A DNA stretch of 41,357 nt, taken from IMG/VR virus record IMGVR_UViG_3300033149_002390, positions 1 through 41,357 of that record; one strand, given 5' to 3'. The stretch comes from a virus. Made by a program: the position numbers and the translations under genes. The notes beneath the pieces are model-generated. The model worked only from the letters and a program-made list of their open reading frames with translations. It ran no database searches and was not told the origin of the DNA. Numbering within the stretch: the first letter of the stretch is position 1; the number at the start of each line of letters is the position of its first letter. Of the stretch, positions 396 to 38,198 are shown in pieces.

Positions 396-1216
396 GCTGG
401 AAAGAAATATTCCCAAAAGATAGTATTTATTATGAAACAAAATACGGTATTTTGTATTGTGGAGATTGTTTAGAGATTATGCCTAAATTTCCTGAAAAAA
501 TATTTGATGCTATAATAACAGACCCTCCTTATGGAACTACTGCTTGTAAATGGGATACAGTTATACCTTTTGAAGATATGTGGAGAGAATTAAAAAGAAT
601 AAGAAAAGATAGAACTCCTATTGTATTATTTGGTAGTGAACCTTTTAGTAGTTATTTAAGAATTAGTAATATTAAAGAGTATAAATATGATTGGGTATGG
701 AATAAAATAAGCGGTGTAAATTTTCTAAATATTAAGAACCGTCCGTTTAAAACGCACGAGAATATTATTATTTTCGCTGACAATGCAAATTTTACATTTA
801 ATCCCATAAGAACCCCAAGAAGTCCGAAATCATTGTTACGGCAACCCAAAGGCAAAAAGCGCATAATAAAAAGAAAAGGGCATATAGAAGTTTATGACAC
901 AAAATTAGAAAGTGTTATAGAAATTCTGTCTGATGGATTAAAGCACCCTGTAAGTATTATAACTTTTTCTCGGGCGGAGAAGGGACGGTATAAATATAAG
1001 CATCCCACTAAAAAGCCGTTAGCGCTTTTGGAATATCTTGTAAAAACTTATACAAATGAGGGTGATTTAGTATTAGACTTTACTTGTGGTAGTGGAACTA
1101 CCTTAGTAGCTTGTGAAAAATTAAACAGAAGGTGGATAGGCATAGAAATAAATAAAGAGTATTGTGAAATTGCCGTTAACCGTGTTAAAGAATGGGAAAA
1201 CACTCTATTTTGTTGA
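392..1216 (+). CDS. Beta-class N4/N6 DNA methyltransferase
   Basis: 274 aa, complete. The catalytic motif TDPPYGTT lies at residues 43-50, followed by the central target-recognition part. The C-terminal AdoMet pocket begins with HPTKKPLALLEYL, continues to LDFTCGSGTTLVAC (motif I) and ends GIEINKEYCEIA. This DPPY-before-FxGxG order defines beta-class adenine-N6 or cytosine-N4 enzymes acting on double-stranded DNA. No restriction endonuclease is nearby, so the likely role is protecting phage DNA from host restriction. The target site cannot be read from sequence. The start overlaps the stop of the upstream methyltransferase fragment. Confidence 0.9.
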   Translation: MSWKEIFPKDSIYYETKYGILYCGDCLEIMPKFPEKIFDAIITDPPYGTTACKWDTVIPFEDMWRELKRIRKDRTPIVLFGSEPFSSYLRISNIKEYKYDWVWNKISGVNFLNIKNRPFKTHENIIIFADNANFTFNPIRTPRSPKSLLRQPKGKKRIIKRKGHIEVYDTKLESVIEILSDGLKHPVSIITFSRAEKGRYKYKHPTKKPLALLEYLVKTYTNEGDLVLDFTCGSGTTLVACEKLNRRWIGIEINKEYCEIAVNRVKEWENTLFC

Positions 1217-1229
1217 GAGGAACAATAAA

Positions 1230-1577
1230 ATGAATAAACAGCTGTTTAACGAAGAACAAGATTTTTCTATTCGACGACAAGCTGAAGAAATACTGGGAAA
1301 AGCTGTTAAAGAAATAAATGGGCATACCTATTTGCGAGGCTACATTTTCATCTTGCAATCTATTGCGAAAGATATTGATAAGCATATTGCATCGGAAAAC
1401 TCAAAGAACGATAAACTAATTAGCGCAATAAATCGACTTAACAAAAATGTTAAACAATTATCTGATGCGGTTTCAGGAATTTTCAAAACACAACAGCAGT
1501 TATTCGACATCAATAGAACATTAAGAGAGAGAGTTGAACTACTGCATAAAGATATTTGCAAAATTGAGAGGAAATAG
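1230..1577 (+). CDS. Coiled-coil protein of unknown function
   Basis: 115 aa from the ATG at 1230, 11 bases after a GAGAGG ribosome site. A longer in-frame reading from 1164 would run into the methyltransferase gene and is less likely. The C-terminal two thirds are helical, with heptad-like hydrophobic spacing (INRLNKNVKQLSDAV, then LRERVELLHKDI), consistent with a coiled coil. No catalytic or metal motifs and no membrane segment are visible. The family is not recognised. Confidence 0.7.
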   Translation: MNKQLFNEEQDFSIRRQAEEILGKAVKEINGHTYLRGYIFILQSIAKDIDKHIASENSKNDKLISAINRLNKNVKQLSDAVSGIFKTQQQLFDINRTLRERVELLHKDICKIERK

Positions 1578-1753
1578 ATTATAGCGGATTTTGGAATTAA
1601 CGATTATATATTACTTTGTATTACAATTTATTTTATAGTGGACTGATAGCATTTTATGTTGTAAAGTTAAAATAGAACAGGGTTGATGATTAAAGATGTG
1701 CTTAAAAACAGTCGAAAACAAGATTAAACTATTTAAGAGAAAGGGTTGATGCA
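1578..1753. other. AT-rich intergenic gap
   Basis: A 176-base gap between two co-oriented genes. The phrase GGGTTGATG occurs twice in related form (about 1680 and 1744). A 17-codon reading (1696-1749) ends at the ribosome site of the next gene, but I do not call it. No clear promoter or terminator is seen. Confidence 0.4.
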
Positions 1754-2011
1754 ATGACAAAAATTGAAGACTTAAAATCGATGAAAGAAAATGTTCAGAT
1801 TGCTATTGGAAAAGCAATCAAGATGATGGACGAATCGGAATCTGATGTTGAGCGGTTGAAGTTGAAAATGATTATTGCTCCTCTTAAACAAGCCCGCCGA
1901 GAAATTGACGATATGCTCCCTGCCGAGAAACCGCCGATGAGCGAGGAAGGTAAGGTTTGGTTCGATATAGCAAACTCAATCGCTCAAATTAAATTACAGG
2001 GGGTGTTATAA
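1754..2011 (+). CDS. Small acidic helical protein upstream of the exonuclease
   Basis: 85 aa, charged and predicted helical, with no Cys, no membrane segment and no recognised motif. The ATG follows GAAAGG. Its stop codon TAA shares its last A with the ATG of the YqaJ-type exonuclease (2011), so the two are translationally coupled. The position suggests an accessory to the recombination pair, but this is inference from context only. Confidence 0.75.
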   Translation: MTKIEDLKSMKENVQIAIGKAIKMMDESESDVERLKLKMIIAPLKQARREIDDMLPAEKPPMSEEGKVWFDIANSIAQIKLQGVL

Positions 2012-2946
2012 TGCCTATCACAGAAAAGCAAAAAAAAGAACGAAAGAAGCATATCGGGTCGAGTGATATGCCTGCCATTTTGGGCGTATCTCCGTTTGCG
2101 AGCGCTTATGATGTCTGGCTTGAAAAGACAGGTAAAGTTGAGCAGGGCGAAGCAAATCAAGCTATGCAGGCGGGAAACGCTCTCGAAGATTGGGTGTTAG
2201 ACCAAGCGGAAGCTGAATTAGGCGAGATGAAGCGAAATGTTCAGGCTATTTGTAAGGTTCTGCCTATCCTTGTAGCTAATGTTGATGCGGTGCGTAATCT
2301 CGATAGTTGCCCAGTTGAGGCGAAAACTGTCGGGCTGTATCACCCGTCGAGCGAGCGATGGGGCGAGCCCGGGACAGACCAAGTTCCTGATAGAGTAATT
2401 GTTCAGTGTGCGGTTCATCAAGCCTGTCTTGGAGTTGAGGATGTTTGTTTTGTGCCTGCCTTTATAGCTCATCGTGGATTGGTGATTTACGAGATACCAT
2501 ATTCAAAAGAATTATCGAATTTGATTGTTGATAAGGCTGGCGAGTTCTGGGAAAAGTATGTCGTCAAAGATATTCCGCCGGAAGATAGTTATGCGAGCCT
2601 CGATTATGTTAAGCGAATAATTAGAGTGCCAAAAAAGATAACAACAGTGCCTACAGATGTAATTAGCGAATGGATAACCGCAAAGGCTATGCTGAGAGAG
2701 TATGAGCAGCGAGAAAAAGAAGTAAGAGCTAAACTGTTGACGCTGCTTGAAGACGCTGAAGTTGGGATAGCAGAAGATAAAGAGTTTGGTGCTATTACGT
2801 ATTTTAAGCAATCACGTTCGAGTATAGACACTAAACGGCTGAAAGAGGAATATCCGGAAGTTTATAATAATGTTGTGCGTAGCTCGGAATATCGTGTTCC
2901 GAGATTTACTAAAAAAGTAGATAAATTTTTAGATGTAGAGGAGTAA
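2011..2946 (+). CDS. YqaJ-like viral recombinase/exonuclease (lambda Exo fold)
   Basis: 311 aa. The N-terminus has the YqaJ signature GSSDMPAILGVSPF (residues about 13-26), followed by an AGNALEDWVLDQA helix. The PD-(D/E)xK metal site appears as VANVDAV (Asp) and PVEAKTVG (Glu-x-Lys). This family digests one strand of double-stranded DNA 5'-to-3' and works with a single-strand annealing protein in phage recombination. The next gene, 5 bases downstream, encodes the probable partner. The C-terminal region (after residue 200) is helical and less conserved. RusA resolvase downstream completes a recombination set. Confidence 0.88.
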   Translation: MPITEKQKKERKKHIGSSDMPAILGVSPFASAYDVWLEKTGKVEQGEANQAMQAGNALEDWVLDQAEAELGEMKRNVQAICKVLPILVANVDAVRNLDSCPVEAKTVGLYHPSSERWGEPGTDQVPDRVIVQCAVHQACLGVEDVCFVPAFIAHRGLVIYEIPYSKELSNLIVDKAGEFWEKYVVKDIPPEDSYASLDYVKRIIRVPKKITTVPTDVISEWITAKAMLREYEQREKEVRAKLLTLLEDAEVGIAEDKEFGAITYFKQSRSSIDTKRLKEEYPEVYNNVVRSSEYRVPRFTKKVDKFLDVEE

Positions 2947-7590: not shown

Positions 7591-7863
7591 ATGCGGGTGC
7601 GGACAAATTCTTTCCTCTATATCATCCTCAAGACATATCAACCCTCTGCGACTTGTCCAAGCCCGTATAATAGGGGAGCAAATGGATTTGGTTCGGCTAA
7701 AAGCTATGGATAGCAAGCCGAATACGTGGGTTCGACTCCCACGCTCTCCAATAGGCGTCCGAATGACAACTGAATATTTCCTTGACGGCTGTATGGTCAA
7801 GGCAGGTGAAATCAAGATTGTAGGCGAATTGCGGAGCAATATCGGACGCCTTAAGCTCCGCAA
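7591..7863 (+). ncRNA. Candidate structured ncRNA with embedded tRNA-like domain
   Basis: This stretch fills the whole gap between the zinc-ribbon gene and the ParB-like gene with abutting helices. Domain 1: 7591-7597/7662-7668 stacked on GGACAA/TTGTCC (7601-7606/7653-7658). Domain 2: the tRNA-like element 7673-7750. Domain 3: AGGCGTCCGA/TCGGACGCCT (7753-7762/7842-7851, 10 perfect bp) enclosing CCTTGAC/GTCAAGG (7780-7786/7796-7802), interleaved with TTGCGGAGC/GCTCCGCAA (7829-7837/7855-7863, 9 bp). Linkers between domains are 2-4 nt. TATAATA lies at 7666-7672. A 36-codon reading (7763-7873) overlaps domain 3; I judge structure the better explanation. No known RNA family is recognised with certainty. 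Confidence 0.7.
7673..7750 (+). ncRNA. tRNA-like element, tmRNA-style, with G3-U70 pair
   Basis: A 7-bp acceptor stem (GGGGAGC 7673-7679 with GCTCTCC 7743-7749) has a G.U wobble at the third pair, the alanyl-tRNA synthetase identity element, and discriminator A at 7750. The T arm GTGGG-TTCGACT-CCCAC (7726-7742) is canonical. There is no D stem and no normal 7-nt anticodon loop. Instead one long arm forms TTCGGCT/AGCCGAA (7692-7698/7716-7722) capped by GCTA/TAGC (7703-7706/7711-7714). The segment TGGATTTGGTTCGG resembles the D-loop analogue of tmRNA. CCA is not encoded. It could be a tmRNA-derived mimic, an aminoacylatable element or a structural module. Confidence 0.65.
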
Positions 7864-7881: not shown

Positions 7882-8643
7882 ATGATGTTGATAATTAGTA
7901 AGGATATAGCAGAGCTTAAGCCTGATGATAGGAATGCACGCAAACACGATAAGCGTAATCTTGAAGCTATAAGGAATTCGTTGGAGCGGTTCGGGCAGCA
8001 AAAGCCGATTGTAATTGATAAGAACAATATAGTTATCGCTGGTAATGGTGTTTATTTTGCTGCTAAAGAATTAGGGTGGAAAGAGCTAAATTGTGTAGTT
8101 TGTGAATTAGATGATTTGAATAAGATGGCGTATGCAATAGCTGATAATAGAACGAGCGATTTGTCAGAATGGGACGATATGATATTGCAATCAATTTTAA
8201 CTGAATTGTCAAATCAAAAAATTGATGTGCCGGGTTATAACGAATCGGAATTGGATAAGATTTTGGGTGATATAGATGAGCGCAATATTTATACGGATAA
8301 AATAAGTATGCCTGATTATGAGCCGTTAGGGATGCCGGTAGATATAGATGATTTGTATGATGATAGTAAGGCTCGTGAACTAATTGCTGAAATTGATAAA
8401 TCTAATATAAGTGATGAATTAAAGAATTTTCTGCGGTTAGCTTCATATCGGCATGTTAAATTTGATTATGAAAAGATAGCGGAGTTTTATTCGCAGAATA
8501 AAGATAATAAGTTAATCAAAAAGTTGTTTGAGGATAATGTATTGGTGATAATTGATATGGAAGGGGCGATAAGGGCTGGAATAGTACAAATCAGGGACGA
8601 GGTTATGGAATTGTTCAAAAAGGAATATGAAGATGAAAGTTGA
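7882..8643 (+). CDS. ParB-like nuclease-domain protein
   Basis: 253 aa behind TAGGAG. Residues 1-75 form a ParB N-terminal domain: NARKHDKRNLEAIRNSLERF then PIVIDKNNIVIAGNG and FAAKELGW, the fold found in ParB CTPases and in phage DNA-modification operons. The usual GHRR-type arginines after the AG are replaced here by GNGVYFAAK. Residues 76-110 continue as a helix (MAYAIADNRTSDLSEWDD) typical of phage ParB/Srx proteins. The rest is charged and helical. The next gene (glycosyltransferase) overlaps its end by 17 bases. Known ParB-TAGT neighbourhoods suggest a role in base modification, which is inference. Confidence 0.85.
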   Translation: MMLIISKDIAELKPDDRNARKHDKRNLEAIRNSLERFGQQKPIVIDKNNIVIAGNGVYFAAKELGWKELNCVVCELDDLNKMAYAIADNRTSDLSEWDDMILQSILTELSNQKIDVPGYNESELDKILGDIDERNIYTDKISMPDYEPLGMPVDIDDLYDDSKARELIAEIDKSNISDELKNFLRLASYRHVKFDYEKIAEFYSQNKDNKLIKKLFEDNVLVIIDMEGAIRAGIVQIRDEVMELFKKEYEDES

Positions 8644-9508
8644 TAAAGCGGGGAAAATAGAAGATTTTGCTATATTTGTTTTATCGCATAGGCGAGCCGA
8701 TAAGGTTTATACGTGGAATATGCTAAAAAAATACGGTAATAAGCAAGATGTTTATATTGTAATAGATGATAGCGACGATGAGGCCGATAAATATGTAAAG
8801 CGTTTTGGTCGAAATAAAATAATAATTTTTAACAAAGATACAATGCGTGGAACTTTTGATATGATGGATAATGATACAGCTAATACTGGTGTTGTTTTTG
8901 CCCGGAATAAAGTTTATGATATTGCTGAACAATTACAATTGAAATATTTTTTGGTATTAGACGATGATTATAGTAAATTGGAATTTAAGATGGATAATTA
9001 TGGACGGTATCATGCAGCTGGAAAGGTTGTTAAGGATTTAAATACAATAATAATTAAACTTGTAGAAGTTTACGAGAAGATGCCTGATTATGTTGTAACA
9101 ATAGCTATTGCACAGACAGGTGATTTTATTGGCGGTAGGGCTGGGGGTCTTGCAAGAACTTTTGCGATAAAGAGAAAGGCTATGAATTGGTTTATTTGCA
9201 GCCCGAAAAGGAGAGTGGAATTTATCGGGCGGTTGAATGAAGATGTAAATACGTATGTTGCAGATGGTATGAAGGGAAAGGTCTTTTTGTCGATACCTTA
9301 TGTTTCTTTACGTCAAAGGCTTACGCAACAAAATACGGGAGGTTTAACAGAGATGTATTTAGACATGGGGACTTATCGGAAGAGCTTTTATTCAGTAATA
9401 TGTAATCCGAGCAGCGTTAAAATCATTAAAATGGGGACTATTTATCCGCGAATACATCATTTTGTCCAATGGCGATATGCTGTTCCTAAAATTTTGCGAG
9501 ATGGATAA
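8627..9508 (+). CDS. TAGT/GREB1-type glycosyltransferase
   Basis: 293 aa. The GT-A-like features are FVLSHRRADKVYTW near the N-terminus, the IVIDDSDDE strand, a metal/sugar-nucleotide DDD in FLVLDDDYSK (residues 112-114), then GDFIGGRAGG, MNWFICS, GRLNEDVNTY and a C-terminal GTYRKSF ... RIHHFVQW block. These match my knowledge of the TET/JBP-associated glycosyltransferase (TAGT) family, which phages use to glycosylate modified DNA bases and which is homologous to animal GREB1. The upstream ParB gene is coupled to it. I find no TET/JBP dioxygenase or hydroxymethylase in this genome, so the acceptor is unknown. A second possible start is ATG 8633. Confidence 0.8.
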   Translation: MKMKVDKAGKIEDFAIFVLSHRRADKVYTWNMLKKYGNKQDVYIVIDDSDDEADKYVKRFGRNKIIIFNKDTMRGTFDMMDNDTANTGVVFARNKVYDIAEQLQLKYFLVLDDDYSKLEFKMDNYGRYHAAGKVVKDLNTIIIKLVEVYEKMPDYVVTIAIAQTGDFIGGRAGGLARTFAIKRKAMNWFICSPKRRVEFIGRLNEDVNTYVADGMKGKVFLSIPYVSLRQRLTQQNTGGLTEMYLDMGTYRKSFYSVICNPSSVKIIKMGTIYPRIHHFVQWRYAVPKILRDG

Positions 9509-11362: not shown

Positions 11363-11512
11363 ATGAAAAAAAGAGAAAAAAGTCAGGTCGAACGAATGAA
11401 AAACGCAATTAGGAAAGACATCAGAGCCAGGAAAAAAAGCCAAAAGAAAAAGGCAGAACAAGAATTCTTAATCGCCTTTTTTGATTTACTGGCTAAACGT
11501 AGGCGAGGGTAG
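11363..11512 (+). CDS. 49-aa highly basic protein
   Basis: 49 aa from the ATG at 11363, behind GGGAGAAATGCG. About 40% of residues are Lys or Arg (KKREKSQ, RKDIRARKKSQKKK), with a short hydrophobic helix near the end (FLIAFFDLLAKRRRG). This suggests a nucleic-acid-binding peptide. Unlike its neighbours, its DNA carries no notable hairpins. It lies between two terminators with genes B and C and could bind the structured transcripts, which is speculation. Confidence 0.6.
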   Translation: MKKREKSQVERMKNAIRKDIRARKKSQKKKAEQEFLIAFFDLLAKRRRG

Positions 11513-11516
11513 AAAA

Positions 11517-11888
11517 ATGAAAAGCAGAGTTATAGTAATTTTGAATGAGCAGCATCAGTTGCTCGACGAGCAGCGCCAAATACTTGATTTCAGGTTTGGC
11601 ACTGGGAAATGGGAAATTCTACACGTTCCGGCAGGAGGCTGGACGTTAGAACAAGTTTGGGAAGTTGCCGACAAGTTGAGCAACTTCTCAACGACCGTCA
11701 TTTTTGCCTCCCCCGTGCCAGCACTTATGAAAGAGCTGGCATACAGGGAAGGACGACGGGACGGGGCAGAGTATGGAGATGCCCCATTTACCGTAAAGCT
11801 GTTTCACAACGACCGTCGGGAAAAGAAGGAGCTGCCTGATGGTCGGCAGATTTCGGTTGTCGCCAAAGAAGGGTGGCAACTGGTGTAG
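11517..11888 (+). CDS. Hairpin-saturated gene C, Rossmann-like small protein
   Basis: 123 aa from the ATG at 11517 (GAGGG upstream). Alternating strands and helices (VIVILNEQHQLLDEQRQIL, EILHVPAGGWTLEQVWEVAD, TTVIFASPVPALMKELAYRE, FTVKLFHNDRR) suggest a small alpha/beta Rossmann-like fold. It is clearly paralogous to the product of 12465-12764 (VPIDGWSYNDILKITEELK, FVANIPVMLMFLAS, VHLFHCD). The DNA of this copy is made of adjacent stems (for example GAAGTTGC/GCAACTTC 11661-11668/11680-11687 and TGCCAGC/GCTGGCA 11716-11722/11735-11741); the paralogue's is not. Function unknown; a nucleotide-sensing or ring-nuclease-like role is only a possibility. Confidence 0.75.
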   Translation: MKSRVIVILNEQHQLLDEQRQILDFRFGTGKWEILHVPAGGWTLEQVWEVADKLSNFSTTVIFASPVPALMKELAYREGRRDGAEYGDAPFTVKLFHNDRREKKELPDGRQISVVAKEGWQLV

Positions 11889-12276: not shown

Positions 12277-12452
12277 AAAAGCAAATGAAGAAAAAATACC
12301 CTTCACCCTTCAGCGTGAGATTAAATCCAGACGATTATAAGAAGCTCCGCAAACTCGCAACGAAAACAGGAATTTCTTCAGGTGCTATTGTTAAGATGGC
12401 AATTAAAAGAGTATTGGACAATCCGAAACTTATGTTGGACGTTTTGAAGTGA
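12273..12452 (+). CDS. Ribbon-helix-helix DNA-binding protein (59 aa)
   Basis: 59 aa, overlapping the ASCH gene by 4 bases. After a Lys-rich start, the strand PSPFSVRLNPDDYKKL is followed by two helices (LRKLATKTG, GAIVKMAIKRVLDNP), the Arc/MetJ/CopG pattern in which paired strands enter the DNA major groove. It is a likely small transcriptional regulator of this early region or of its own operon. The usual family length is 45-60 aa. Confidence 0.75.
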   Translation: MKKQMKKKYPSPFSVRLNPDDYKKLRKLATKTGISSGAIVKMAIKRVLDNPKLMLDVLK

Positions 12453-12464
12453 AAGGAGAAGAAA

Positions 12465-12764
12465 ATGCGAGCTATTATCATTGTTGATAAAAACATAGGA
12501 TTAACTGTGGAACAAAAAGAAACGCTAAATCGATTTTATCCGAAGCAGCAAATAATGGAAGTTCCTATTGACGGTTGGTCTTATAATGATATTTTGAAAA
12601 TAACAGAGGAATTAAAAGAGAAATTGGATGTTGGCTTTGATATCGTTTTTGTTGCCAATATTCCAGTTATGCTAATGTTTTTGGCGTCTTATGTTAGTTC
12701 TTGCTACACAAATGGGTCGGTGCATTTGTTTCATTGCGATAAATCGATATCTATATTTATTTGA
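12465..12764 (+). CDS. Hairpin-free paralogue of gene C
   Basis: 99 aa behind AAAGGAGA. It shares with gene C the first strand (AIIIVDKNIGLTVEQKETLN), the VPIDGWSYNDI turn, the central FDIVFVANIPVMLMFLAS strand-helix and the VHLFHCDKS strand, and is shorter at the C-terminus. It is AT-rich and I see no comparable stems in its DNA. The pair therefore separates protein-level constraint from the RNA structure of gene C. Function unknown. Confidence 0.78.
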   Translation: MRAIIIVDKNIGLTVEQKETLNRFYPKQQIMEVPIDGWSYNDILKITEELKEKLDVGFDIVFVANIPVMLMFLASYVSSCYTNGSVHLFHCDKSISIFI

Positions 12765-12814: not shown

Positions 12815-12850
12815 TTGACGCCCGCCTGATAGCGCTATATATATCTTGAT
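12815..12850 (+). promoter_or_regulatory. Promoter giving a leaderless sigma-like mRNA
   Basis: TTGACG (12815-12820), a 17-nt spacer and TATATA (12838-12843) place the expected transcription start at about 12850-12851, the A of the sigma-like gene's ATG. No Shine-Dalgarno sequence precedes that ATG, so the message is probably leaderless. Confidence 0.65.
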
Positions 12851-13216
12851 ATGCACGATATTACAGATGACGATATTGGGTGGGCGTCGCAGGTTGTCGA
12901 GAAATTAACTCGCAAATGGCATACGCCATACAACCTCAAAGAGGATTTACACTCTGCTGCTTATCTGGGGCTGGTTAAGGCTGCAAAAAGGTATTCCCGC
13001 AAAAAAGCAAAACGACTCGCCAAAAAATTAAATCGAGCCCCCTCGACCTTCCGGACTTACGCAATGTATTGGATACTCAAGGAATGCAAAATGTTAATCG
13101 ATGCTGAAAAAAAACAAAAAATGCTCTTGAACAACGTTAAAGACAGTATAATATTTCATAGGGGGAAAGGCGTTTTAGAAATTTCCGACATTGTGCCGGA
13201 AGAAGAAAGTGAATAA
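12851..13216 (+). CDS. Sigma-70-like protein with region 2 only
   Basis: 121 aa. The stretch from NLKEDLHSAAYLGLVKAAKRY (minus its last residue, residues about 28-47) through the basic KKAKRLAKKL to STFRTYAMYWILKECKML matches sigma-70 region 2: 2.1/2.2 core binding, then 2.3/2.4, which melts and reads the -10 box. It stops about 35 residues later with an acidic tail (DIVPEEESE). There is no helix-turn-helix region 4, which normally reads the -35 box, and no frameshifted continuation that I can find. It sits just before the late genes, suggesting control of late transcription. The start has no ribosome site, but an in-frame stop at 12830-12832 excludes a longer reading. Confidence 0.75.
   Translation: MHDITDDDIGWASQVVEKLTRKWHTPYNLKEDLHSAAYLGLVKAAKRYSRKKAKRLAKKLNRAPSTFRTYAMYWILKECKMLIDAEKKQKMLLNNVKDSIIFHRGKGVLEISDIVPEEESE
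13143..13153 (+). promoter_or_regulatory. AGTATAATA promoter-like motif inside the sigma-like gene
   Basis: ACAGTATAATA, followed by TTTCATAG, matches the word found at 19044, 23017 and 29112. It lies about 100 bases upstream of the structured RNA at 13254 and could drive it. No -35 box is visible. Confidence 0.45.
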
Positions 13217-13253
13217 ATGAGAAAATGAGTAGAAATATTTACAAAAAAACAGA

Positions 13254-13533
13254 CTCGAAGATGTTAATCAACAACGGGGTTAGTGAGACCGTGCGTTTCT
13301 CCCCGATGCTGAAGAAAATAGTAAGCATCAAAAAACGCTGGGATGTATGGTTGCTAACGCTGATTAGCAGCCTGCCGAGTATGACACAAGCGGTCGCAAG
13401 AAGGTGGAGCTTTGGCTTGGCTCCTGACCGTGCCCAAATAGCCAATTTAATTTTTATGGGCTCGATACTCGGACAAGCATCAAAAACTACGACTTCACAT
13501 CTTCGAGCCTATTAAATTTTCAAGTAAGTCGTA
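13254..13533 (+). ncRNA. Candidate large structured ncRNA upstream of the terminase genes
   Basis: An 11-bp perfect helix (CTCGAAGATGT 13254-13264 with ACATCTTCGAG 13497-13507) closes a series of hairpins: CGGGG/CCCCG (13275-13279/13301-13305) with an inner GAGAC/GTTTC; ATGCT/AGCAT (13306-13310/13324-13328); GGTTGCTAA/TTAGCAGCC (13349-13357/13364-13372, one G.U); CGGTC/GACCG (13391-13395/13426-13430) with GGAGC/GCTCC inside; and GCCCA/TGGGC (13432-13436/13457-13461). A 9-bp perfect helix, CTACGACTT/AAGTCGTAG (13487-13495/13525-13533), crosses the closing helix as a pseudoknot with a 17-nt loop. A 96-codon reading at 13225-13515 overlaps it, but has only a poor ribosome site and no family. Possible roles are a packaging RNA or a ribozyme. 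Confidence 0.72.
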
Positions 13534-13797
13534 GCACATAGTCAGCTTCTAAATAGCCTCTTAATTATTATGGCTATTGAAACTTCTTATGCGCCTATCT
13601 ATAAATATTATACCGCAAAAACAGTAAAAATCAAGAAAAAAATTAAAATAGGCTATCTTGGTAGAATAGACAAAATAGTTAAAATATATAAAATAGGCAT
13701 TATATTATAATCTCAAAAAAGGGCGGAATTGTGTATAATATTTATAGGCGTAAGTAGCGCGAATATATATATGTTAATTATTGTTAGATAAGAGAAT
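13534..13797 (+). other. AT-rich gap before the terminase genes
   Basis: It holds a 7-bp hairpin AATAGCC/GGCTATT (13552-13558/13572-13578) and a TATAAT at 13734-13739 (GTGTATAATATTTATAGG) that is the likely start of the packaging transcript. A 46-codon Lys/Ile-rich reading at 13570-13710 has no ribosome site and is not called as a gene. Confidence 0.45.
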
Positions 13798-14343
13798 ATG
13801 CCAAAACAAGGTCGAGTTGAAATTAAAAAAACTGCGGACGGTGAAGAATATCAGGCGGAATATGATAATAACGATATTCGAGCTGTCCCGCTGAAATACA
13901 GACACCTCAAGCCCGGAAATCCGTTATACGATTTAGCTATTCGTGGATTAAAGATGGGGTTATATGTAAAGACGGTTGCTGGTTGGTTGGGCATAGACAC
14001 TGCAACGATATATAAGGCTGCGAAAAAATATCCTGAATTAGCAGAGGCGCTTTATGAAAAGGGCAATCAAACAAAAATGGGAATATTAGCGAGAGTGATA
14101 AATAAAGCTGCGATTGAAGATAATTTATCAGCACAGATTTACTATCTTAATCGAATTGCGAATGCTCCGAGCAAGGTTCAGCGTGCTGATGATTATCGTA
14201 ACCCTGCCAAATTTATAAAGTTACCTGTTGTCCCACCTGAATGGGTAGATAACGATGAAGGCGATGATGATGAAGAAGATAGCGAAGCTGAATTAGGTTC
14301 GGGGGAAAGTTCAGAGGAAGGTTCGGGGGATTATGGCAGTTAA
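13798..14343 (+). CDS. Terminase small subunit
   Basis: 181 aa. A central helix-turn-helix-like part (GLKMGLYVKTVAGWLGI, DTATIYKAAKKYPELAEAL) resembles the DNA-recognition domain of phage small terminases. It is followed by a helix and a strongly acidic tail (NDEGDDDEEDSEAELG). The large subunit gene starts 11 bases inside its end. It should bind phage DNA at the packaging start and recruit the large subunit. The start ATG is behind AAGAGA, a weak ribosome site. Confidence 0.8.
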   Translation: MPKQGRVEIKKTADGEEYQAEYDNNDIRAVPLKYRHLKPGNPLYDLAIRGLKMGLYVKTVAGWLGIDTATIYKAAKKYPELAEALYEKGNQTKMGILARVINKAAIEDNLSAQIYYLNRIANAPSKVQRADDYRNPAKFIKLPVVPPEWVDNDEGDDDEEDSEAELGSGESSEEGSGDYGS

Positions 14344-15784
14344 GTTCGTTTTACAACCTGATTTATGGATATTCTGGGAAGGTGGGCAGCGGGATTTTGT
14401 TTACGATTTCAAGCATAGGTATATTGCGATTGAGGCTGGCTGGATGAGCGGGAAAACGTATGCAGGCGCTCGAAAACTTATCTCTCTGCATTTGCTCAAT
14501 TCGGTGGACGCTCGGGGCAAGCCTACTTATGTCCCTTCACTTGTAGTTGCCCCGTCGATAAATGCGCTTGAGGATTTTATGATACCGGAACTCGAAAAAG
14601 CCTGCTCTGAAATAAACCTTGATTTTGAATATCAGCCCGGAAAGCGCAGGGTTGCATTGCCCGATTTGGGGCATAGGGGGGGGATGATTTCACATATCAA
14701 GATGCGGACAGCGGAACGTCCTGATTTGATTACAGGCTTTGAGGTTGGGGCGATATGGGGCGACGAGGCTGCAAGATGGAAGTGCGATATGCATAATCCG
14801 AAAAACGACCCGTTTATTCAGTGTATTGGTCGTTTGAGACACCCGAAAGCGAATATTCTTCAAGCATTGTTCACTTATACAAACGAAGGGGATACAACGA
14901 GAGTTTACAAGTGGATACGAGAGCAAAATGAACAACGGGACAGGGCAGTTTATCAAGCTCGGACATTGGATAATCCAGTCGCAAAAGATTTTTATGAGGC
15001 TATGTCTGGGGCTTTGACAGACGATTTGAAAGTTCAATATCTTGAAGGTGGAGCGATAACGCTATCTGGTGGCAATGTATATCGAGCATTCAATCCTGAT
15101 GTCAACATCGACCAAAATATAGGCTATGACTTTAATCTTCCGCTACAGATTTCGATAGACTTCAACATATCGCCCGGAATGCACTTGATAATCGGGCAGT
15201 ATGATTTAGAGAAGGATTTGTTTACTGCGATTGATGAGTGTTTTGTTCGGCGTGGTTCGGTTCGAGAAATAGTTGAGGAGTTTGGACGGCGGATAAAGCA
15301 TATTATTGAGGCGAGTGCAGGCAAAAGATTTCCGTTTCCAGCATTGGAGGTTTACGGTGATGCTACCGGAAAAAGCGAATGGGCGGGGACTGGTGAGAGC
15401 TGCTATATGATACTCGGAGACGGGCTTACTTTGCTGCAGAAAAGACTAAATGTCGATTTTGGTGTTCGAGCAAAAATCCCGAAAGTAAATCCGTATATAG
15501 AAGAGCGCATAAACGCTGTAAATGTGGCATTCAGGGACTTAAACGGTAATTGCCATTATAAGATACATCCAAGATGTGAGAGGCTTATACGGGATTATAA
15601 AGAGCTTAAACGAAATGCTAAAGGTGAGGTCGATAAAAATAGCGACCCTGAATTGTCTCACGCCTCAGACGCTGAAGGTTATCGGATACATTATCAGAGA
15701 CCTGTTAGAAAAATAGGTAATAGAATGGGCGGGCGAGTAAGTGTTAATGCTACTGTCTATAATAATCCAATCGTATCTGTATAA
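14333..15784 (+). CDS. Terminase large subunit (ATPase and nuclease)
   Basis: 483 aa. Walker A is AGWMSGKT (residues 35-42), a variant of the usual G-rich loop. Walker B is VGAIWGDEAARW with Asp144/Glu145. The C-terminal RNase H-like nuclease has Asp in LQISIDFN, EVYGDATGKSEW near residue 342 and Asp in SHASDAEGY near residue 444. This enzyme pumps DNA into proheads and cuts it. It is complete, and its place before the Mu-like portal is standard. Whether it makes cos, direct-repeat or headful ends is not decided by the sequence. Confidence 0.95.
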   Translation: MAVKFVLQPDLWIFWEGGQRDFVYDFKHRYIAIEAGWMSGKTYAGARKLISLHLLNSVDARGKPTYVPSLVVAPSINALEDFMIPELEKACSEINLDFEYQPGKRRVALPDLGHRGGMISHIKMRTAERPDLITGFEVGAIWGDEAARWKCDMHNPKNDPFIQCIGRLRHPKANILQALFTYTNEGDTTRVYKWIREQNEQRDRAVYQARTLDNPVAKDFYEAMSGALTDDLKVQYLEGGAITLSGGNVYRAFNPDVNIDQNIGYDFNLPLQISIDFNISPGMHLIIGQYDLEKDLFTAIDECFVRRGSVREIVEEFGRRIKHIIEASAGKRFPFPALEVYGDATGKSEWAGTGESCYMILGDGLTLLQKRLNVDFGVRAKIPKVNPYIEERINAVNVAFRDLNGNCHYKIHPRCERLIRDYKELKRNAKGEVDKNSDPELSHASDAEGYRIHYQRPVRKIGNRMGGRVSVNATVYNNPIVSV

Positions 15785-15819
15785 TAATTAAAGAAAGCTA
15801 TAGTAGGAAGTTTTGAATT

Positions 15820-18194: not shown

Positions 18195-18202
18195 GTATAA
18201 TA
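18194..18202 (+). promoter_or_regulatory. AGTATAATA promoter-like motif
   Basis: AGTATAATAGTTAATAGAG lies 35 bases before the protease/scaffold gene. It matches the other copies and has no visible -35 box. Confidence 0.5.
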
Positions 18203-18236
18203 GTTAATAGAGAGTATATATAGGAGTTTAAGAAAA

Positions 18237-19652
18237 ATGGATAAAATAAGTGATTTTGCAGTTTGGACGACAAAATATATCAATGATTTGCCTGATAGCG
18301 CCTTTCTTTATATCGAGTCTGGCGGGAAAAAAGATGAGGAAGGCAAGACTACGCCCCGAGCATTAAGGCATTTTCCTTATAAAGACGCAAGCGGAAAGAT
18401 AGATTTACCGCATTTGAGGAATGCTATTGCCAGAATACCTCAATCTAATTTGTCGGAAAGTCTAAAGAAGACGCTACAGAATAAGGCTAAAGCGTTATTG
18501 GAGCAAGAGAAAAAGAGGCGAGGCTTATCGCTTTACGGGTTGGAATACGAGTCGAAAGAATTTCAGGAAACTGCAGAAAAGCAGCGGTTTGTTAAAGATA
18601 TTATGCGAGTCGGCAAATATACGCACCCGATAGCGGGATGGACGTTAAATGTCGATACAGCTCGAATGGATAGGTGGATTGCAGCTTTTCGGAAGATGCG
18701 GGCTAACGGAATAGATATTGAAGTTGTCAAAGACCATTCTGCAAGAGCAGAAGATGTTGTTGGTTATTTGGTGGATATGTATCGCGAAGGAGATGTTTTG
18801 TTTGGCGTTCACGAATTGATTGGCGAGCAGTCTATTGATTTAGCACGCAGGGTAAAGAATGTCAGTGTATCGGTTATGAGTGATTTCGTTGACGGGCAGG
18901 GCAGGCATTATGGTGAAGCTATTGTTCACTCGGCTATTGTTCAGCGCCCTGTAGTACCCAATCAAGAGCCGTTTATTCAGATAGCAGCTTCGAGTTTGGC
19001 GGGCAGCGATTGCAAGCAAGTCGAATTTTTACAGCGTGATGACAGTATAATATTTAATGAAGACTATAATGTTAATGTTAATAATTCAAACGGAGATAAT
19101 GAAATGGACAAACTTATCGAACAATTAAGCCAGTTAATTGGCAAGGAATTGGATGAGAAGAACGCAATTGACGGCGTAAGGTCTTACATAGATGAGCTTA
19201 AATCGGCTCAAGAAGAGGCGAATAAAAAGCTATCTATGTCGCAGTCGCAAGATAAGCAAGAGAGCGATAAGAAGCCTGAAATTGATCCTGATGCGCTCGA
19301 AATGCTTGTCGAGAGTGCGGAAGAGAAATTTAATTCTCTTGTTGAGAAGGGCAAAATAACGCCTTCCGTTGCTAAAAGGCTGAAAGAATTGTTTATTGGC
19401 AAGAAAGATAATTATAATCTTTCGATGTTGAGCAAGAGATTCTCTAACGGCGATAAATCTGTCGTAAAACAGGTTGTCGAAATACTTGAGGAAAATCCGT
19501 CTATTGTAAATCTTTCGAGCAAAACCGGTGTTCAAATAATGAACAATTCGCTTTCAGATAGCGAAGATGCTGAAAAGGCAGCGAAAGAGAAGGAACAGCT
19601 GATCAAAGAAATGTCCGCAATGGCGGGCATAACCGTATCAGATGATAAATAG
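18237..19652 (+). CDS. Prohead protease with C-terminal scaffold (Mu gpI/gpZ type)
   Basis: 471 aa behind ATAGGAGT. Residues 1-100 are charged and contain an uncommon N-terminal segment (LPDSAFLYIESGGKKDEEGK, then RALRHFPYKDASGKID). Residues 105-260 match the Mu gpI-type protease (VGKYTHPIAGWTLNVDT, KDHSARAEDVVGYLVDMY, HELIGEQSIDLARRVKNVSV, YGEAIVHSAIV). After residue 280 an acidic, helical scaffold follows. An internal in-frame ATG at 19104 with its own ribosome site probably gives the free scaffold. The protease matures the prohead and then destroys the scaffold. Confidence 0.88.
   Translation: MDKISDFAVWTTKYINDLPDSAFLYIESGGKKDEEGKTTPRALRHFPYKDASGKIDLPHLRNAIARIPQSNLSESLKKTLQNKAKALLEQEKKRRGLSLYGLEYESKEFQETAEKQRFVKDIMRVGKYTHPIAGWTLNVDTARMDRWIAAFRKMRANGIDIEVVKDHSARAEDVVGYLVDMYREGDVLFGVHELIGEQSIDLARRVKNVSVSVMSDFVDGQGRHYGEAIVHSAIVQRPVVPNQEPFIQIAASSLAGSDCKQVEFLQRDDSIIFNEDYNVNVNNSNGDNEMDKLIEQLSQLIGKELDEKNAIDGVRSYIDELKSAQEEANKKLSMSQSQDKQESDKKPEIDPDALEMLVESAEEKFNSLVEKGKITPSVAKRLKELFIGKKDNYNLSMLSKRFSNGDKSVVKQVVEILEENPSIVNLSSKTGVQIMNNSLSDSEDAEKAAKEKEQLIKEMSAMAGITVSDDK
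19044..19052 (+). promoter_or_regulatory. AGTATAATA motif inside the protease gene
   Basis: ACAGTATAATATTTAATGAAG lies 52 bases upstream of the internal scaffold start and could give scaffold its own transcript. No -35 box is visible. Confidence 0.45.
19104..19652 (+). CDS. Internal in-frame scaffold protein
   Basis: 182 aa, the same frame as the protease, from codon 290. CGGAG lies 8 bases upstream of the ATG. The sequence is acidic and helical (MDKLIEQLSQLIGKELDEK), as expected for a head scaffold. Mu and lambda both make scaffold from an internal start within the protease gene, so this arrangement is well precedented. Confidence 0.7.
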   Translation: MDKLIEQLSQLIGKELDEKNAIDGVRSYIDELKSAQEEANKKLSMSQSQDKQESDKKPEIDPDALEMLVESAEEKFNSLVEKGKITPSVAKRLKELFIGKKDNYNLSMLSKRFSNGDKSVVKQVVEILEENPSIVNLSSKTGVQIMNNSLSDSEDAEKAAKEKEQLIKEMSAMAGITVSDDK

Positions 19653-23016: not shown

Positions 23017-23025
23017 AGTATAATA
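23017..23025 (+). promoter_or_regulatory. AGTATAATA promoter-like motif
   Basis: AACAGTATAATAATTATAG lies 52 bases upstream of the tail tube gene. It is almost identical to the copy at 29112. No -35 box is visible. Confidence 0.5.
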
Positions 23026-23076
23026 ATTATAGAGTTTCGCAATTTTGGAAATAGATATTAATAGGAGAACATAAAT

Positions 23077-24163: not shown

Positions 24164-25894
24164 ATGGCGTATGTATTAGGCGAAAGTTTTATAACCTTTA
24201 ATGCAAAAACGAGCAAGCTTCATTCTGCCTTGCAATCTATAACAACAGGGATAAAAAAGAAGCTTAGGCTTGTGGTTGGCGCTGTTGGCGCTGCTGCTAC
24301 TAAGATTCGTCCTGCCTTGCAATCTATAACAGCAGGAGTAAAGAAGGTTGGGCTTGTTGTTGGCGCTGCTGGCACTGCTGCTATTTATGCTGGAATAAAG
24401 TTTGTAAAGATGGCAAGCGATGTCGAGGAAACGTCAGCTAAATTCAAGACTGTGTTTAAGGAGCAATCGAAAGCTGTAGAGGCTTTCGCTGTATCATTAT
24501 CAAAATCTATCGGTGGCAGCAGATACGAATTTATGCGTTTCCTTGCATCAATGCAAGATACGTTTGTCCCTTTAGGTTTCGCTCGTGATAAATCGGCTGA
24601 GCTGTCAAAGGCTGTTGTTCAGTTAGGAATGGACTTAGCGAGCTTTAATAACGTTGCGAGAGGCGATGCTTTGCGTGATTTGCAATCTGCTTTGGTTGGC
24701 AACCACGAGACTGTGCGCAAGTATGGAATTATTATTACCGAAGCTGCCCTGAATCAAGAATTATTGAATATGGGCTTTAAGGGTGGTACTCGCGCAGCTA
24801 CGGAGCAGCAAAAGGTAATGGCGCGCTTGAGTATAATAATGAAAAGCTCGACTGATGCACAAGGCGATGCTATTCGGACATCAAAATCATTTGCAAACCA
24901 GTTTAGGGCGTTCAAGGGTGAGCTTTACGATTTAGCCGTGAGTATCGGAAAAACATTGCTGCCTACTGCAAAGAAGATTGTTTCCGTGTTTCGTAACCTT
25001 GTCAGCGGATTTGGGAATTTCGTATCGACTCATTCTGAGCAAATAGCTCAAATAGTAAGTAACATTGTTGCGGTGATTGGTGGCGTGTTCGTAAGTATAG
25101 GCGAATATTTAAGCTCATTCTACAACAGCGCAAAAAAAGCTACCAGTGGATTAGGCACGCTGTCCATTATGGCACAAACATTTGTTACCGCAGGGAATCT
25201 CGTAAGAGGCACGCTCTATGCTATTGCTACTGCTATAGCTGCTGTTGTTGGTGGCGTTTTTATGCTTGTGAATGCACTGAAGAGTGGTATCAATATGCTG
25301 GTAAATTGGGCGACGGGTAACCGCAAAGCAAACGAATCGCTTACCAGAGAATTAAAAGAAAACTGGCTCACATATAAAAACCTAATTAAAGACCTTGCAA
25401 AAGAAACAAAGAACAGCTTCGAAAACGCTTTTAGCAACGTCAATGAGCAATCTGACAGCTTGATTGATAAGCTCACAGCGAATATCAATAAGTTCAAAGA
25501 TAAATTCAATGATGCGTTTAAGGATACGGGTAAAAATGCAAAGAATACGTTCAAGGATATGAAAAATCTGTTCGGGAAAGATTTTCTTGCCGGTCTTGCT
25601 GGTGGCAAGCAAAAGCCAGCTGCTATGCCGAAGATTGATGTTAGTAAATCTGCAGCTGGTATAAGTTTAGCCTCACTCGAAAGCGTTTGGAGCAAAATCC
25701 AAACATCAATTAAAGAGCCGAAAGAGAACAAGGCTAAAGACGCACAAATAAAATCAGAGCAGCATTTAGCGAAAGTGAAAGAGGACGAAATTAAGCAGTC
25801 ATCTCTTCTTGAGCGTTTGACAAAAGAGCAAATACCAGATTTGATTAACGCCGTTAAGCAATCTAATGCGCGTGTTGCGGTTGTTGGGAGATAG
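24164..25894 (+). CDS. Tape measure protein
   Basis: 576 aa, long and largely helical. The N-terminus holds an internal duplication (LQSITTGIKKK..LVVGAVG and LQSITAGVKK..LVVGAAG, residues about 23-40 and 51-68). Residues about 80-260 match the minor tail protein core (SKSIGGSRYEFMRFLASMQD, QLGMDLASFNNVARGDALRD, ALVGNHETVRKYGI). Hydrophobic segments around 280-375 may cross the host membrane during DNA entry. The length suggests a short-to-medium tail. It follows the chaperones, as expected. Confidence 0.92.
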   Translation: MAYVLGESFITFNAKTSKLHSALQSITTGIKKKLRLVVGAVGAAATKIRPALQSITAGVKKVGLVVGAAGTAAIYAGIKFVKMASDVEETSAKFKTVFKEQSKAVEAFAVSLSKSIGGSRYEFMRFLASMQDTFVPLGFARDKSAELSKAVVQLGMDLASFNNVARGDALRDLQSALVGNHETVRKYGIIITEAALNQELLNMGFKGGTRAATEQQKVMARLSIIMKSSTDAQGDAIRTSKSFANQFRAFKGELYDLAVSIGKTLLPTAKKIVSVFRNLVSGFGNFVSTHSEQIAQIVSNIVAVIGGVFVSIGEYLSSFYNSAKKATSGLGTLSIMAQTFVTAGNLVRGTLYAIATAIAAVVGGVFMLVNALKSGINMLVNWATGNRKANESLTRELKENWLTYKNLIKDLAKETKNSFENAFSNVNEQSDSLIDKLTANINKFKDKFNDAFKDTGKNAKNTFKDMKNLFGKDFLAGLAGGKQKPAAMPKIDVSKSAAGISLASLESVWSKIQTSIKEPKENKAKDAQIKSEQHLAKVKEDEIKQSSLLERLTKEQIPDLINAVKQSNARVAVVGR

Positions 25895-29111: not shown

Positions 29112-29120
29112 AGTATAATA
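29112..29120 (+). promoter_or_regulatory. AGTATAATA promoter-like motif
   Basis: AACAGTATAATATTATATAG lies only 17 bases before the ATG at 29137, so its transcript would have a leader of about 10 nt with a poor ribosome site. No -35 box is visible. Confidence 0.5.
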
Positions 29121-29136
29121 TTATATAGAAACGGCT

Positions 29137-33674: not shown

Positions 33675-34352
33675 GTGGATATTCAAGTTCACAATCTGAT
33701 TACCAACGGCTGGTTTCCCGAGCTGGGGACTGGGCAGCAATTATTTAATGGCTGGTTCTTTCCGTATGGGGCAAATATCGGGCGATACGGCTTGTATATA
33801 AAAGAGAGTTCTCAGCCAAACGTGGATAGCGAATTGCCGTATCTTATTTTTACTCCTGCCAATAACTCATATTCATTCTCGTATCCGTATAACGCTAATT
33901 CGCTATATTATATTGCGCTTACACGATTTTCGGCTTGTGGAGACGAAAGCGATGCCAGCTATGTAGTTGTATGGACTGATAGCAGCGGTAATCCGTATGT
34001 AATTTGCTATGCTCCAACGCACGTTTCGGTCAGAAGTTTATCTGGTGGACAGATTTACGTTAGCTGGCAATATGAGCGGTTGGGCAATATGGGAATTATT
34101 GACCCTGATAGCTTTACTGTTCGATTAGAGGGCTTTCCTGAATATGACGAATATAAATATGAGCAATCCGTATCGTATAATAGCACAAAAAAAGATTATG
34201 GAGCTACAATTATATTACCGCCTGAAGCGTGGGGTAATGGATATGTATCTATTTATGGAGTAAAATCTGGGCATTCGGGTATATTAAGCCGGTATAATAT
34301 TTATAGACAAGATGATAGTGTTTCAGCAACGATAGATGTTCTAACAGAGTAA
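33675..34352 (+). CDS. Fibronectin-III-like tail protein
   Basis: 225 aa with a GTG start behind GGGGGAT. The segment from about residue 115 (APTHVSVRSLSGGQIYVSWQ) followed by FTVRLEGFPEYDEY and GYVSIYGVKSGHSGIL resembles a FnIII domain. The N-terminal part is Gly/Trp/Phe/Tyr-rich (NGWFPELGTGQQLFNGWFF). It closes the fibre block. Confidence 0.6.
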   Translation: MDIQVHNLITNGWFPELGTGQQLFNGWFFPYGANIGRYGLYIKESSQPNVDSELPYLIFTPANNSYSFSYPYNANSLYYIALTRFSACGDESDASYVVVWTDSSGNPYVICYAPTHVSVRSLSGGQIYVSWQYERLGNMGIIDPDSFTVRLEGFPEYDEYKYEQSVSYNSTKKDYGATIILPPEAWGNGYVSIYGVKSGHSGILSRYNIYRQDDSVSATIDVLTE

Positions 34353-35536: not shown

Positions 35537-35890
35537 ATGATGATGCAAGAAAAAAATACGATTGTTGATTGGTTATTGACGTTTCTTTTTATAGCGGTTA
35601 CAGGCTGGCTATTGATATGGCTATTTGCTGGCTGCTCCTGCTTATCGCCGAAAACAAGCACACGTGATATAGCGTCAGCTAATAAAGTTATGTCTGAAAA
35701 CGCCCTGCAAGTCCACGAGAGAGCGCAGGAGCGACGAACGCAGGTTGGGCTGATAAATGTATCGTCCGAAATGAATTTAAGGGAATTTGCGGGCGTTGTG
35801 GCGCTTACACTTATATTGCTGTTTGTTATATACAAGCTGTTTTATCATTGGAAAAATTCGCCTACGGGGAGTTTCCTGAAAGATGATTAA
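35537..35890 (+). CDS. Membrane protein with lipobox and C-terminal span
   Basis: 117 aa. Residues about 10-32 are hydrophobic and end in LFAGC (a lipobox-like site); a polar, helical middle follows (ANKVMSENALQVHERAQERR); a second span lies at about 82-102 (VVALTLILLFVIYKLFYHW). The pattern could be a unimolecular spanin (lipid at one end, span at the other), which would link both membranes at lysis. It overlaps the next gene by 8 bases. Confidence 0.6.
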   Translation: MMMQEKNTIVDWLLTFLFIAVTGWLLIWLFAGCSCLSPKTSTRDIASANKVMSENALQVHERAQERRTQVGLINVSSEMNLREFAGVVALTLILLFVIYKLFYHWKNSPTGSFLKDD

Positions 35891-36296
35891 AATATATGTG
35901 GTTGGTGCTTATAGAGACAAACGAGGTGCTAATTTTGTGCGTAATAACATTCGAGCTGCAGAATTGGCTGGGCAGGAATTAGCATTATTGTCGGATAAGA
36001 TTTGCCCGATAGTTCCGCATTTGCTCTGGGGACTATGGGACGGGCTAAAGGCTGAAGATTATTTTCTCGAATGCGGTAGAGCGGTTTTAGGAATGTGTAA
36101 CGCAATTTTAGTCTTGCCTTCATATAAAAATTCCGAAGGCTCGAAAAGAGAAATAGAGCTTGCTCGAAAGTCGGGCAAGCATATTTTTTATTATCCGCAA
36201 GATATGCCTAAAATAACTGAATATGTTAATAAAGTAGAATGGAGCGTAGTCAATGAGCAAAAAGGCAATTCGCAGGAAAAGACCGAAAGTAAATGA
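35883..36296 (+). CDS. Nucleoside deoxyribosyltransferase-like (DUF4406)
   Basis: 137 aa. IYVVGAYRDKRG at the N-terminus, IRAAELAGQELALLSDKICP and the C-terminal YKNSEGSKREIELARKSGK with the conserved Glu match the nucleoside 2-deoxyribosyltransferase superfamily (DUF4406 branch). Members cleave N-glycosidic bonds of nucleosides or nucleotides. In this phage it might edit nucleotide pools or act in DNA modification or defence evasion. Substrate is unknown. Confidence 0.82.
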   Translation: MIKIYVVGAYRDKRGANFVRNNIRAAELAGQELALLSDKICPIVPHLLWGLWDGLKAEDYFLECGRAVLGMCNAILVLPSYKNSEGSKREIELARKSGKHIFYYPQDMPKITEYVNKVEWSVVNEQKGNSQEKTESK

Positions 36297-38153: not shown

Positions 38154-38181
38154 TTGCAAAAAAGCAAATTGATGGTATAAT
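38154..38181 (+). promoter_or_regulatory. Promoter of the replication leader RNA
   Basis: TTGCAA (38154-38159), a 16-nt spacer and TATAAT (38176-38181, in the GGTATAATAATTATGG context) place the start at about 38188, directly before the structured leader. The -10 context resembles the AGTATAATA family. From 38025 to 38150 I see nothing definite. Confidence 0.7.
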
Positions 38182-38198
38182 AATTATGGTGGAAAAAT

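Follow-up and report, generated by a model that had tools for sequence, protein, structure and literature searches.

Genomic setting of the gene

The window, meaning the whole stretch of viral DNA analysed here (41,357 nucleotides), represents one complete, circular genome of a phage (41,243 bp), as its first 114 bases recur at the end. All tabulated genes run from left to right. The late genes comprise the small terminase (terS, starting at 13798), the large terminase (14333), the portal (15820), a minor head protein (17214), the maturation protease (18237), the major head protein (20432), connectors and the tape measure (24164), and this block is flanked on both sides by replication, recombination and DNA methylase genes. 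As listed in Table 1, a gene coding for a 121-aa sigma-like protein lies directly before terS, at the border between early and late genes. A gene for a ribbon-helix-helix (RHH) protein, overlooked initially owing to a length cut-off, is located ~400 bp further upstream.

Table 1. Features of the phage genome discussed in the text, by position in the window
Feature	Position	Strand	Context and basis
RHH (CopG/Arc-like) regulator gene	12288..12452	+	RHH_1 2e-5; Arc-like repressor 8e-5
Host-type promoter of the sigma gene, TTGACG-17-TATATA	12815..12843	+	Consensus match only, 9/12
10-bp perfect palindrome ATAGCGCTAT	12829..12838		Read directly from the sequence; overlaps the promoter spacer
Gene for the sigma-70 region-2-only protein, 121 aa	12851..13216	+	Profile libraries, six-frame HMM, structure model
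Candidate late promoter CAGTATAATATTTCATAG	13146..13160	+	Within the 3' part of the sigma gene
ORF adjoining the sigma gene	13225..13515	+	No family match; codon statistics
Sole reverse-strand motif copy, exact consensus	13599..13613	-	Intergenic before terS; points back over the sigma gene
Candidate late promoter GTATAATATTTATAG, exact consensus	13733..13747	+	Before the small terminase gene
Small terminase subunit gene (terS)	13798..14343	+	PHROG; first late gene 3' of the sigma gene
Candidate late promoter	15779..15793	+	Before the portal gene
Candidate late promoter	18195..18209	+	Before g18237 (head maturation protease)
Candidate late promoter	19045..19059	+	Inside g18237; upstream of g19714, major head protein
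Candidate late promoter, exact consensus	23018..23032	+	Before g23077
Candidate late promoter	24831..24845	+	Within the tape-measure gene
Candidate late promoter	29113..29127	+	Predicted +1 ~11 nt ahead of the start of g29137, which lacks a Shine-Dalgarno (SD) sequence
Candidate late promoter, exact consensus	34292..34306	+	End of g33675, before the post-structural genes
Motif copy	38175..38189	+	Before replication initiator gene g38306; also a 4/6 -35 match at 16 bp; may be an ordinary host promoter

Several other features were seen in the window. Two small proteins encoded next to each other on the plus strand upstream of the sigma gene (11481-11888 and 12465-12764) look like paralogues by eye, and gave no convincing family in Pfam or PHROGs. 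The product of a plus-strand gene at 8627-9508 is assigned by Pfam to the TET-associated glycosyltransferase family (TAGT, 1e-25), which, together with the two DNA methylases, suggests that the phage DNA is modified. A tRNA-like RNA that lacks a D arm (7672-7752, plus strand) lies directly 3' of a copy of the octamer GTATAATA at 7666. It has a 7-bp acceptor stem, a 5-bp T arm with TTCGACT and a single long composite stem, its fold z-score is -4.3, and it has no ARAGORN or Rfam match.

Sigma region 2 without region 4

The original prediction held that the gene codes for a sigma factor with region 2 and no region 4. The ORF opens with an ATG, has no alternative in-frame start upstream, and holds no other ATG, GTG or TTG start ahead of the core helices. 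Regions 2.1 to 2.4 occupy residues ~1-90 and are followed by a short acidic tail, the protein ending ~30 residues past region 2. Regions 1.1 and 3 are absent, and an 11-residue insertion separates region 2.2 from 2.3. The Pfam model Sigma70_r2 (PF04542) matched the protein with an E-value of 1.6e-4, a match that falls short of the curated cut-off; with the identical model the proven phage sigma factors phiEco32 gp36 and T4 gp55 score weaker (0.002 and 0.087, respectively). PHROG returned an RNA polymerase sigma factor (2e-5), and NCBIfam returned SigK (3.9e-6) and sigma70-ECF (6e-5), both short of the cut-off. A further HMM, derived from 111 viral sigma factors, scored 1.9e-10 for the sigma ORF and 1.4 for the runner-up among all six-frame ORFs of the window; its seed was the FxTYAxYWI motif of the 121-aa protein itself, which makes it somewhat biased in that protein's favour. 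Neither region 3 nor region 4 could be detected, whether in the protein itself or among the six-frame ORFs of the genome; the search for a region 4 elsewhere that could belong to the same protein was therefore negative, and the protein is not a complete sigma-70 factor, which would carry region 4 in the same chain.

The predicted structure was examined as well. A model made from the single sequence was too poor for use (pLDDT 48), and an AlphaFold model computed with an alignment of the region 2 segment reached a pLDDT of 87. The leading Foldseek and VIA matches were sigma domain 2 structures, including domain 2 of sigmaA bound to TATAAT, and T4 gp55 in the open complex (7d7c_F) came lower among the fold matches (Z 7.1). 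Because the alignment included sigma factors and high scores come readily to helical bundles, these matches show consistency and are not independent proof. A match to another fold had been named as the outcome that would speak against a sigma factor, and what emerged was sigma domain 2. With four profile sets and the predicted fold in agreement, and a six-frame scan negative for region 4, the prediction of region 2 without region 4 is borne out, and by its sequence the protein consists of sigma domain 2 alone, which would make it a minimal sigma factor of the phage.

The residues of the melting motif in region 2.3 (F67, T69, Y70, A71, Y73 and W74) are invariant in an alignment of 67 sequences, which had themselves been picked by a motif of the FsTYAxYWI type. 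In region 2.1, the core-binding QEG is replaced by SAA. Domain 2 is the main core-binding part of sigma, and this, together with the missing region 4, would fit a sigma mimic that occupies the clamp helices of the polymerase and shuts off host transcription without reading promoters itself. We consider such a role very unlikely, since the promoter-melting residues are conserved whereas it is the core-contact QEG that has drifted, and since a matching class of -10-only promoters is present (see below). Relatives of the protein were found neither in viral or genome contigs nor in phages or plasmids, by pattern-based scans that reach close relatives only, so that distant ones may exist.

Expression of the sigma gene

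The start of the sigma gene has the weakest SD sequence in the genome, ranking 50 of 50 genes, with an anti-SD duplex energy of +1.7 kcal/mol. In the 190 bp before the ATG, a single site scores at least 9, namely the promoter TTGACG-17-TATATA, with TTGACG at 12815 and TATATA at 12838-12843; this is moderate evidence, as ~0.3 such sites per 110 bp are expected by chance. When the +1 is placed ~7 nt past the -10 element, the predicted start falls on T12850/A12851, at the ATG. The earlier proposal of a promoter that would put the transcript start at an ATG lacking a ribosome site agrees with these positions, and a leaderless sigma transcript is plausible but no more than that, judging from the promoter spacing and the missing SD sequence. 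The palindrome in the spacer is a possible operator, and the RHH protein is a candidate regulator of this promoter. The sequence TAGCGC followed by a TATATATAT-like sequence was seen at 12830, and again at 13755.

A repeated -10-only motif in the late region

A sigma factor with region 2 only would read only a -10 element, and the genome should therefore hold -10-only promoters. Such a motif was found (Table 1). A de novo k-mer search upstream of the late genes gave it as the top 8-mer, SD-like words set aside, and alignment of the sites yielded the consensus CnGTATAATAwTTATAG (C at -3), with low information content upstream of -3 and clear information content downstream to about +14. Its octamer GTATAATA occurs 12 times on the plus strand and once on the minus strand, with ~2 expected per strand by an order-3 Markov model. 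The excess lies in the late region, where 10 plus-strand copies compare with 0.87 expected, and outside it there are 2 versus 1.06 expected. Among its 280 anagrams the octamer is the commonest, and it ranks joint first upstream of genes. The 15-base consensus with up to 2 mismatches occurs 8 times on the plus strand versus 0.55 expected. An order-6 Markov model expects 7.8 copies of the octamer versus the 12 observed; this is an unfair null, because its 7-mers themselves derive from the motif, and orders 1-4 were used instead. A T4-type motif, TATAAATA, was tried and rejected, having only 5 copies per strand and no bias.

The best -35 match (to TTGACA, at the appropriate spacing) at the 12 plus-strand octamer sites has a mean of 2.08 of 6 positions versus 2.51 at random, and most sites have no TGn extended -10. 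Only half of the 12 copies are found upstream of an annotated start at a distance of no more than 130 nt (p=0.007), one of these preceding the doubtful ORF at 13225. Some copies are intragenic (19046, 24832 and 34176). The 282-bp AT-rich gap before terS (13516-13797) contains two exact late-promoter motifs that face outward, and several copies of ATAGGC in both orientations. The region before terS also carries two 10/12 matches to host-type promoters (13577 and 13667).

Kin phages as a comparison

Kin phages were found by a terminase pattern, and have terminase, portal, capsid and neck genes in common with our phage, at roughly 30-50% identity, the values for terminase, portal and capsid being 40-47%. 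An earlier set of terminase kin (25-31% identity) proved too distant and carried no region 2. None of the terminase-pattern kin contains a relative of the 121-aa protein, an absence that is not firm for each of them, many of the records being fragments. In 165 kb of AT-rich kin sequence, GTATAATA occurs 2 times on the plus strand versus 4.6 expected, and the k-mer search brought out no word like it upstream of kin genes. Some kin of this lineage, as defined by terminase and portal, do carry sigma-like proteins. In two of them (L260 and L261) a DUF4406/DUF7768 domain is fused to region 2 and, as in our protein, region 4 is not recognised; three others (L263, L264 and L266) have an ECF-like protein of ~200 aa with an HTH at its C-terminus. 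All differ in sequence from the 121-aa protein, and their phages do not share the GTATAATA motif. The fused genes lie at 865-1770 (minus strand) of L260 and 1414-2328 (plus strand) of L261, and their DUF4406/DUF7768 domain is nucleoside-deoxyribosyltransferase-like; a DUF4406 domain standing alone is encoded at 35883-36296 of the window. Another kin phage, L237, has many ACACCTAC repeats upstream of genes in its late region, with 9 of 9 copies on the plus strand, forming a repeat array. The contig that carries one relative, 6.5 kb long, was binned as Humisphaera, which hints weakly at a planctomycete host.

The kin bear on the chief rival to a late sigma factor, namely that the host sigma uses the GTATAATA sites as ordinary promoters with a good -10 element, aided by another phage activator, and that the region 2 protein serves some other purpose. 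As the motif contains the canonical TATAAT, the host sigma could also bind it; moreover, TATAAT alone is enriched on both strands (50 and 45 copies versus ~30 expected), and an RHH regulator is encoded nearby. However, the sites have no -35 element and mostly no extended -10, the conserved downstream TTATAG is foreign to the host consensus, and the motif is absent from kin phages of similar AT content. On balance, we regard the host sigma explanation as unlikely.

The adjoining ORF and the question of a partner

The original prediction stated that a sigma factor able to read only a -10 element would need a special promoter class or a partner protein. The first part found support in the candidate class GTATAATAwTTATAG, which has no -35 element and is absent from kin; as to the second, no partner was recognised. 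The ORF that adjoins the sigma gene (Table 1) was considered as a region 4 partner, based on an LxxLP...FGL pattern seen by eye, and rejected: Pfam, PHROG, PDB and HMM searches were empty and its reading frame does not look like the coding one. For 13217-13515, codon statistics favour another frame that contains several stops (TGA and TAG), and read-through of that frame gave no family match either. The ORF therefore looks non-coding in its listed frame and is probably not a partner gene, and the segment separating the sigma gene from terS may be what is left of a former gene.

Pfam and PHROGs recognised no sliding clamp and no partner like T4 gp33 among the proteins scanned, gp33 being hard to detect. 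In T4, gp33 sits at the flap of the polymerase, does not read DNA and has no sequence similarity to sigma (PMC2988020). The protein might thus be half of a split sigma factor, with an unrecognised region 4 or flap-binding partner provided by the phage or the host. Pairs of this kind exist, as in T4 gp33 and SigO/RsoA, a partner without similarity to sigma could be missed, and for many of the small phage genes no family was matched. Nevertheless, this appears improbable, as the adjoining ORF looks non-coding, the HMM detects no region 4 genome-wide, the promoters have no -35 element for a partner to read, and no sliding clamp was recognised among the proteins scanned.

The coding-like frame with several stops next to the sigma gene, and the codon bias of the sigma ORF itself (0.13 bits per codon, weaker than most genes), could also point to a decayed or non-functional sigma fragment. 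Yet the sigma ORF is intact, none of the other five frames is better than its own, and the active-site-like residues are kept, which makes decay a most improbable explanation.

A proposed late-gene switch and known systems

We propose that the sigma gene is expressed from the host-type -35/-10 promoter at the early/late border, perhaps as a leaderless message. The protein would then bind the clamp helices of the host RNA polymerase, displacing the host sigma factor, and melt promoters with only a -10 element and a conserved downstream part (CnGTATAATAwTTATAG). The head, tail and later genes, which begin immediately downstream of the sigma gene, would thereby be switched on, a timing that we infer. 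A minimal, domain-2-only late sigma factor that directs the host RNA polymerase to -10-only promoters is the reading that we consider fairly likely. A more specific version is tentative: that TATAAT is retained while selectivity comes from the flanking G/A and the downstream TTATAG, that domain 2 alone is enough, with no region 4, partner or clamp, and that the protein's own message is leaderless. Several points speak against a late sigma factor, namely the change of QEG to SAA, the 11-residue insertion, the intragenic motif copies and the 10/12 host-type matches before terS, and the link between sigma factor and promoters, drawn from genome sequence, is an association and not proof.

Region-4-less sigma factors with -10-only promoters are already proven in T4-like and phiEco32-like phages. 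What would be new here is a smaller, unrelated-looking one with its own candidate promoter class, in a 41-kb siphophage of a lineage in which neither had been seen. Should it need no partner, it would show how little protein suffices to open promoters specifically. A single small protein and some ten predicted promoters lend themselves to a direct test, and the kin phages, which have other sigma-like genes but not the motif, can serve as a natural comparison.

The position immediately upstream of the terminase genes is one that the sigma gene has in common with the late activators of Gram-positive phages of the RinA/ArpU type, which are encoded just before terS; those are HTH or region-4-like proteins, whereas the protein here is region 2. 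In the two-subunit sigma factor RsoA/SigO of Bacillus subtilis, region 2 is likewise a separate small protein, and SigO supplies region 4. RsoA, however, needs SigO, and no region 4 partner was detected in the phage genome.

In T4, the late promoters lack a -35 and carry a -10-like element (PMC7892883, PMC2988020). T4 gp55 resembles our protein in having sigma domain 2 without region 4, in its -10-like late promoters without a -35 element (here known as a sequence motif only) and in the acidic stretch at its end. It differs in its length of 185 aa, in extra N- and C-terminal segments that include a clamp-binding tail, and in acting with gp33 and the gp45 sliding clamp, whereas the phage described here has the GTATAATAwTTATAG motif and, among the proteins scanned, no recognised clamp or gp33. 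BLAST gave no similarity between the two (best E=24), and the terminal segments of gp55 are absent from the 121-aa protein, which argues against orthology. The middle/late sigma factor of the kuravirus phiEco32, gp36, is also a phage sigma without a region 4 homologue, and uses a single element, tAATGTAtA, with the +1 6-8 nt downstream (PMC8948821). It differs from our protein in its length (214 aa), its C-terminal sequence, its promoter element and its origin in an unrelated podophage, and the sequence relationship between the two is limited to region 2. Together, the mini-sigma and the repeated -10-only signal probably make up a switch for late genes of the kind known from T4 and phiEco32, which suggests that late control by a sigma factor with domain 2 only arose more than once.
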